Below, one piece after another: positions 37,590-37,859 of a stretch of DNA of 64,000 bases (the stretch's first letter is position 1; each line of letters starts with the position of its first letter). The position numbers were made by a program, and so were the translations under genes. Below the pieces are notes generated by a model. The model saw only the letters and a list, made by a program, of their open reading frames with translations. It was not told the DNA's origin and did not search any database. Source of the stretch: Bacteroidetes bacterium CG2_30_33_31 (GTDB taxonomy: Bacteria; Bacteroidota; Bacteroidia; Bacteroidales; UBA1556); NCBI GenBank assembly GCA_001872625.1, contig MNXP01000076.1:1-64000 (forward strand), in the 5' to 3' direction.

Positions 37590-37630
37590 AAAAAATAAAG
37601 CCCTCACAATTAAATTGTAAGGGCTTTTTT
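37590..37630. terminator. Bidirectional terminator, serves tRNA-Ala on minus
   Basis: The stem AAAGCCCT/AGGGCTTT with an inner ACAATT/AATTGT has A- and T-runs on the two sides. On the minus strand it lies just after the tRNA 3' end. Confidence 0.8.
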
Positions 37631-37635
37631 TAAAG

Positions 37636-37709
37636 TGGAGAATATCGGAGTCGAACCGATGACCTCTTGACTGCCAGTCAAACGCTCTAGCCAACTGAGC
37701 TAATCCCCC
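37636..37709 (-). tRNA. tRNA-Ala (anticodon GGC)
   Basis: The 74-nt cloverleaf is complete. The acceptor stem GGGGGAT/ATTCTCC includes the G3:U70 pair that marks alanine tRNAs. The D-arm is GCTC/GAGC. The anticodon stem TTTGA/TCAAG carries loop CTGGCAG, giving anticodon GGC. The T-arm is ATCGG-TTCGACT-CCGAT, and the discriminator is A. CCA is not encoded. A minus-strand TAnnTTTG element lies about 140 bp upstream, beyond two pseudo-tRNA repeats, and a terminator follows. Confidence 0.96.
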
Positions 37710-37774
37710 AAATAATTTCAATATGATTCAAACGCTCATGCCATCCCGATAGCTATCGGGAGAGCTAAGCCCAC
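37710..37774 (-). repeat. 65-bp repeat, copy 1: tRNA 5'-end copy with palindrome in D-loop
   Basis: This copy abuts the 5' end of tRNA-Ala. In the tRNA direction it reads like the tRNA 5' end: TTAGCTC and GAGCGTTTGA are shared with the real gene. However, the D-loop start is replaced by TCCCGATAGCTATCGGGA (37744-37761), a perfect 18-bp palindrome. It is identical to copy 2 over all 65 bp. It cannot encode a working tRNA because everything 3' of the D-arm is missing. Confidence 0.9.
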
Positions 37775-37839
37775 AAATAATTTCAATATGATTCAAACGC
37801 TCATGCCATCCCGATAGCTATCGGGAGAGCTAAGCCCAC
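37775..37839 (-). repeat. 65-bp repeat, copy 2
   Basis: An exact tandem copy of 37710-37774, with its palindrome at 37809-37826. The first few bases of the unit (AAATAA) occur once more after it. Confidence 0.9.
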
Positions 37840-37851
37840 AAATAAAGTTGG

Positions 37852-37859
37852 CAAATATA
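37852..37859 (-). promoter_or_regulatory. TAnnTTTG -7 element upstream of the pseudo-tRNA repeats and tRNA-Ala
   Basis: The minus strand reads TATATTTG followed by CC. If used, the transcript would contain both 65-nt repeats before the tRNA. Confidence 0.5.

Follow-up and report, generated by a model that had tools for sequence, protein, structure and literature searches.

The tRNA-Ala locus and its tandem units

The locus lies on the minus strand of contig MNXP01000076.1 of Bacteroidetes bacterium CG2_30_33_31, the first 64,000 nucleotides of which constitute the whole stretch of DNA analyzed here (hereafter the window). It contains an intact tRNA-Ala gene with the anticodon GGC (37635..37709; called by ARAGORN and matched by Rfam RF00005 with 63.9 bits), flanked on its 3' side by a terminator-like hairpin with a T-run (37599..37634) and preceded by two tandem 65-bp units, namely the promoter-proximal unit 1 (37775..37839) and unit 2 (37710..37774), which adjoins the tRNA. 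The two units are the same in every letter, as recognized in the original prediction, and the TAnnTTTG element that it placed upstream of both is present as TATATTTG (37852..37859), which we take to be a Bacteroidota -7-like promoter box. Being situated between this box and the tRNA, the array lies within the tRNA leader, and the units are probably co-transcribed with tRNA-Ala. The intact tRNA is the sole Rfam match in the window stretch, with no leader or other RNA family scoring above the gathering threshold.

On the minus strand, each unit is composed, in order, of GTGGGCTTAGCTC, TCCCGATAGCTATCGGGA, TGGCATGAGCGTTTGA, and ATCATATTGAAATTATTT, and corresponds to positions 1 to ~31 of tRNA-Ala with the AGT of the D-loop swapped for the 18-nt palindrome TCCCGATAGCTATCGGGA, followed by an 18-bp linker. 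In unit 1, the successive parts are tRNA positions 1–13 (37827..37839), the palindrome (37809..37826), the 3' side of the D-arm with the 5' strand of the anticodon stem (37793..37808), and an A+T-rich linker (37775..37792); their counterparts in unit 2 are found at 37762..37774, 37744..37761, 37728..37743, and 37710..37727. The first block matches tRNA-Ala except at positions 2 and 6, mismatches within the first seven positions that distinguish the copies from the real gene, and the second matching block covers D-arm and anticodon-stem positions up to ~31. The palindrome was thus correctly predicted to stand in place of the D-loop AGT in both units. The predicted likeness to the 5' end of tRNA-Ala likewise stands, but not the letters given after TGGC, which are ATGAGC in the copy rather than TAGAGC.

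Palindromes and capped tRNA fragments across Bacteroidota

The 16-bp core of the palindrome has seven exact copies in the genome of the window and none in the reversed control. Among the 52 exact core copies examined in nine genomes, 11 are situated in the arm of a tRNA (Ala, Val, Pro, Leu, or His), as against a chance expectation of ~0.02, estimated from ~45 tRNAs × 20 bp in 3 Mb. The palindrome strongly prefers tRNA D-loops, and the genomes do not show the random spread without a link to tRNA genes that had been named as the contrary outcome. At a further locus of the genome of the window (L002), a tRNA-Leu(CAG)-like copy of full length, adjoining the intact gene, has the core in its D-loop, and a truncated tRNA-Leu contains a variant of the palindrome that differs by one letter. 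Palindromes also occur away from tRNAs, either in intergenic regions or in-frame in RHS-type ORFs, and therefore have a life of their own.

Several such sites deserve separate mention. In the RHS-type ORFs of the genome of the window (L003:6086, L004:3011, and L005:2993), the in-frame palindrome is read as PDSYRD or PIAIG, and two of the copies are at one LP-GE site of homologous ORFs. The variant TGCGATAGCTATCGGG follows a common CTTAAGTTGACGCCTA at four sites ~200 bp from contig ends in this genome (L022:219, L025:175, L029:234, and L027:1060), where a repeated insertion element may end. At L073:1510, L077:1510, and L098:339, older palindromes have further ones nested in their center or loop, where 18 nt apparently took the place of 3.

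The tRNA-Ala leader varies between relatives. It is plain and fragment-free in two genomes of the same genus (G001 and G008); bears capped fragments of its own with different hairpins in another member of the genus (G002) and in a genome of a different genus (G023); and contains a fragment, partly masked, in G006.

Starting from the hairpin, we scanned 84,980 species genomes for D-arms into which a TCCCGA...TCGGGA hairpin is set and listed 140 matches, in at least 117 stretches. These are nearly all from Bacteroidota, inclusive of isolates (cultured Arenibacter, Gelidibacter, Euzebyella, and Algoriphagus have the same design), with a few from Gracilibacteria, Ignavibacteria, PVC, and others. 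A tRNA lies within 200 bp downstream in 93 of the 140 listed matches. After removal of duplicates, at least 99 unique fragments, covering at least 20 tRNA types, are directly upstream of their intact cognate tRNA; 77 of the 99 listed are identical to it over the first 12–15 nt, indicating that they are young, and the match mostly ends at positions 25–33. The outer arms of the hairpin were held fixed by the search pattern, and its loop is variable among the listed matches (AGCT in 68, AGTT in 19, and others in the remainder). One locus (L182) has four matching units and a slightly altered fifth one upstream of tRNA-Val. Rfam searches of 19 sister loci recovered matches to tRNA and tmRNA only.

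We also searched 396 Bacteroidota genomes for tandem half-tRNAs with no hairpin in the pattern. Of the ~20 matches, as against five in the reversed control, some are attributable to chance, and none shows a second intact D-loop. The recognizable tRNA halves have hairpin-like D-loop inserts, some of them unrelated in sequence (TCCGTCAGCCGACGGA; AGTCCC..GGGACT). In one genome (G481), a single variant is common to two tRNA loci, which suggests copying between loci. A separate configuration is seen in a member of Saprospiraceae (L216:7597-7872), where four tandem tRNA-like copies 86 bp apart have the anticodon arm replaced by TCCCGATCCATATCGGGA. What the earlier reading of the locus missed is that hairpins of other sequence occupy the same place at other loci, that anticodon and T-loops are also capped, and that the units belong to a recurrent class with GIY-YIG nuclease genes.

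Co-oriented GIY-YIG nuclease genes

A small GIY-YIG ORF is found at the fragment or the tRNA in 34 of the 117 listed hairpin loci; well under one such association is expected by chance, as estimated from ~100 matches in 14 genomes. The ORF, of ~80–100 amino acids, belongs to Pfam PF01541 (GIY-YIG), with UPF0213 and SLX1 being the nearest solved structures in profile searches. In several Flavobacteriaceae (L115, L127, L146, L151, and L211), the order is hairpin, GIY-YIG gene, and tRNA-Asn. The genome of the window itself has GIY-YIG genes with a capped fragment at tRNA-Ser(TGA) (L268), tRNA-Asp(GTC) (L282), and tRNA-Leu(CAA) (L259).

A nuclease-first search in 14 genomes, which had been picked for carrying hairpins, with the nuclease loci themselves picked irrespective of the hairpin, recovered 64 loci or arrays. 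Half of these (32/64) have a tRNA or tmRNA no more than 350 bp away, and in all 32 the nuclease gene is co-oriented with that neighbor. One of them (L254) adjoins a called tRNA-SeC that is probably itself a capped copy. In an automatic search for copies of the neighboring tRNA, nearly all the inspected tRNA-side loci contain tRNA fragments (the two exceptions being L283 and L308, where none was found), and nearly all the fragments are hairpin-capped, with several caps called by eye since their arms are shorter than the minimum of the script. The cap is in the D-loop in 5' fragments and in the anticodon arm or T-loop in 3' fragments, and its palindrome differs between loci (e.g., TCCCGAT..ATCGGGA, CCTGCCTGCCGGCAGGCAGG, and CCCGCCCG...CGGGCGGG). 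Full-length tRNA-Leu copies are likewise capped (L002, L298, and L304).

About half of the GIY-YIG relatives lie off tRNA genes, and 32 of them form a separate branch of the tree. Specificity of the nuclease for a tRNA type was considered and rejected: the tRNA labels cluster on the GIY-YIG tree beyond shuffled ones (34 vs 44.8 changes), yet many switches would be needed. As further observations, GIY-YIG genes are found on the same strand 108–353 bp from tmRNA genes (L318 and L319, also L316), and one locus (L280; G225:C13:73426-75587) repeats a GIY-YIG gene about six times in tandem, every 395 bp; each copy is accompanied by a 3' fragment of tRNA-Val with caps in the anticodon and T arms, and no intact tRNA was called nearby.

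Complete cassettes have one of two organizations. The first has tRNA positions 1 to ~30 with the hairpin-capped D-loop, followed by the GIY-YIG ORF and the intact tRNA. The mirror version has the intact tRNA and a terminator, followed by the GIY-YIG ORF, a tRNA 3' part capped in the anticodon or T-loop, and a terminator. Both are on the strand of the tRNA and often form tandem units of ~300–415 bp.

A candidate tRNA-nested nuclease cassette and the alternatives

The window units have no GIY-YIG ORF or recognizable remnant of one, and their membership in this class accordingly rests on architecture; as their linker stands in the place of the ORF found at other loci, they can be read as ORF-less derivatives. 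We propose, with a probability of roughly 0.6, that they are tandem armored 5' fragments of tRNA-Ala that most likely derive from a mobile, tRNA-nested GIY-YIG cassette, either as remains without the ORF or as a non-autonomous form of it. No syntenic pair with and without the element was found; hence, its mobility is something we infer.

According to this proposal, the nuclease would cut tRNA genes, and repair of the break would duplicate half of the tRNA, with this long duplication flanking either the nuclease gene or no more than a linker, so that an intact tRNA would always be kept, as in the case of phage SegB. With less certainty, the hairpin might ruin the conserved loop sequence of the surplus half and thereby render the duplication stable and harmless. 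As to the role of the cap, we favor the possibility that the surplus half with its spoiled loop would cease to be a target of the nuclease; alternatively, it might become unable to act as a competing tRNA half. However, the loops of the neighboring intact tRNA are unaltered, and spoiling the target in the fragment would therefore not suffice to protect the locus. The original suggestion that a palindrome was inserted into a partial tRNA copy that was then duplicated fits the end state seen in the window but leaves the near-universal capping, even of young fragments, unexplained. A bolder version, for which we would not claim better than long odds, is that the arms of tRNA genes are attacked by GIY-YIG nucleases guided by structure and that breaks in the surplus copies are capped when short palindromes, interchangeable with one another, are copied and pasted into the tips of hairpins, which would make this a categorically new mobile system.

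In a doubtful alternative, independent, dispersed palindromes of a REP-like kind would have hairpin tips as their preferred insertion sites (the D, anticodon, and T loops of tRNAs and the centers of older palindromes) and would survive only in surplus tRNA copies, the GIY-YIG gene being a mere neighbor. Palindromes outside tRNAs, those with 3 nt replaced by 18 in their own centers (L073 and L077), the use of several unrelated palindromes as caps, and the capping of the full-length tRNA-Leu copies are all in keeping with it. The far-above-chance association with co-oriented GIY-YIG genes argues against it, as does the capping already seen in young fragments identical to the parent tRNA, among which no uncapped ones were observed; moreover, no mobilizing enzyme was identified for the palindromes. 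A RAYT/REP origin was separately examined and rejected: the hairpin is near one of 30 RAYT loci, and the genome of the window has no match to PF01797 (Y1_Tnp). The palindromes do share with REP/BIME elements and their RAYT transposases (PMC3733652, PMC3116915) the form of short dispersed palindromes, sometimes inside ORFs, but differ in their placement in tRNA arms and in having no RAYT link and no recognized terminal tag, with neither GTAG nor CGTC seen by eye at the edges of TCCCGATAGCTATCGGGA in the contexts listed.

A leader RNA whose structure influences tRNA processing had also been put forward in the original prediction. We consider it unlikely that the units are a selected leader of this kind, with the capped 5' halves tuning how the downstream tRNA folds or is processed by RNase P. 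In its favor are the probable co-transcription and the unusually stable predicted fold of the window leader (z=–5.5), with the two units paired together and the cloverleaf free; however, two perfect 18-bp palindromes would be expected to give a low energy in any case. Across 63 loci, the folding model predicts mispairing with or without the hairpin (median 0.91 and 0.95), an outcome to which its multiloop parameters probably contribute. The patchy presence within the genus and the capped 3' fragments downstream of tRNAs also speak against a leader function. Such modeling was also applied, on 63–66 single-unit loci, to a competing tRNA half as the reason for the hairpin, and it favors neither reading of the cap: native acceptor pairing is slightly higher with the hairpin (mean 0.10 to 0.20, p~0.002), but mispairing is predicted either way. 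Common use of tRNA genes as attachment sites, with partial tRNA copies arising from integration, brings up scars of ICE or prophage integrases; nevertheless, this is very improbable, as the usual attachment-site duplication is the tRNA 3' end and not, as mostly seen here, the 5' half with its hairpin cap, no integrase is present among the window ORFs listed for 34–42 kb, and the recurrent neighbor is the GIY-YIG ORF. An assembly artefact or chance repeat is hardly credible: the window is from a 76-contig genome and identical tandem units are hard for short reads, but the same architecture in many independent assemblies of unrelated genomes, including those of the cultured isolates, makes an artefact unlikely in general.

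Returning to the tRNA-nested cassette, it would, by analogy, work most like an element of the SegB type, though we do not claim membership. In phage T6, the nuclease activity of SegB, which cuts inside tRNA genes, is needed for the tandem amplification of tRNA-Tyr together with segB (PMC13096335). As with free-standing GIY-YIG homing endonucleases, SegB among them (PMC13096335; PMC2988022), the present elements place a GIY-YIG gene beside tRNA genes of many isotypes, and they share with SegB the tandem segmental amplification of a tRNA and nuclease unit. We read GTTCSAWTY, the T-loop sequence of tRNAs, as the reverse complement of the RAWTSGAAC motif of SegB. Unlike SegB, the present elements are at chromosomal loci of Bacteroidota, with an ORF of just ~80–100 amino acids, ORF-less minimal units, and truncated tRNA copies with hairpins in the D, anticodon, or T loops. 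Of the nucleases with the nearest solved structures, SLX1 is structure-specific, and tRNA-nested arrays were not found reported for either it or UPF0213 in the literature examined. Tiny palindromic units within RNA or protein genes are also typical of the very small mobile repeats of cyanobacteria and the Rickettsia palindromic elements, but the present units are set apart by their association with a GIY-YIG gene and with duplicated halves of tRNAs.

No description of such capped tRNA fragments was found in the open-access literature searched (including that on GIY-YIG and tRNA in Bacteroidetes and on UPF0213), nor one of such a means by which the host would retain an intact tRNA; the wider pattern appears new to that literature. 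The capped tRNA pieces resemble the traces of a mobile element that lives on tRNA genes and is hardly known so far. Such an element would account for pseudo-tRNAs overlooked in annotation and offers an origin that can be tested for the abundant, unexplained palindromes of Bacteroidota; were structure-guided capping to hold, the dispersed palindromes would be the marks of tRNA-targeting nucleases. In the cassette reading, transfer RNA genes would permanently house tiny, selfish nuclease cassettes throughout one bacterial phylum, carrying the recent finding of nuclease-driven tRNA amplification by SegB in phage over to bacterial chromosomes.
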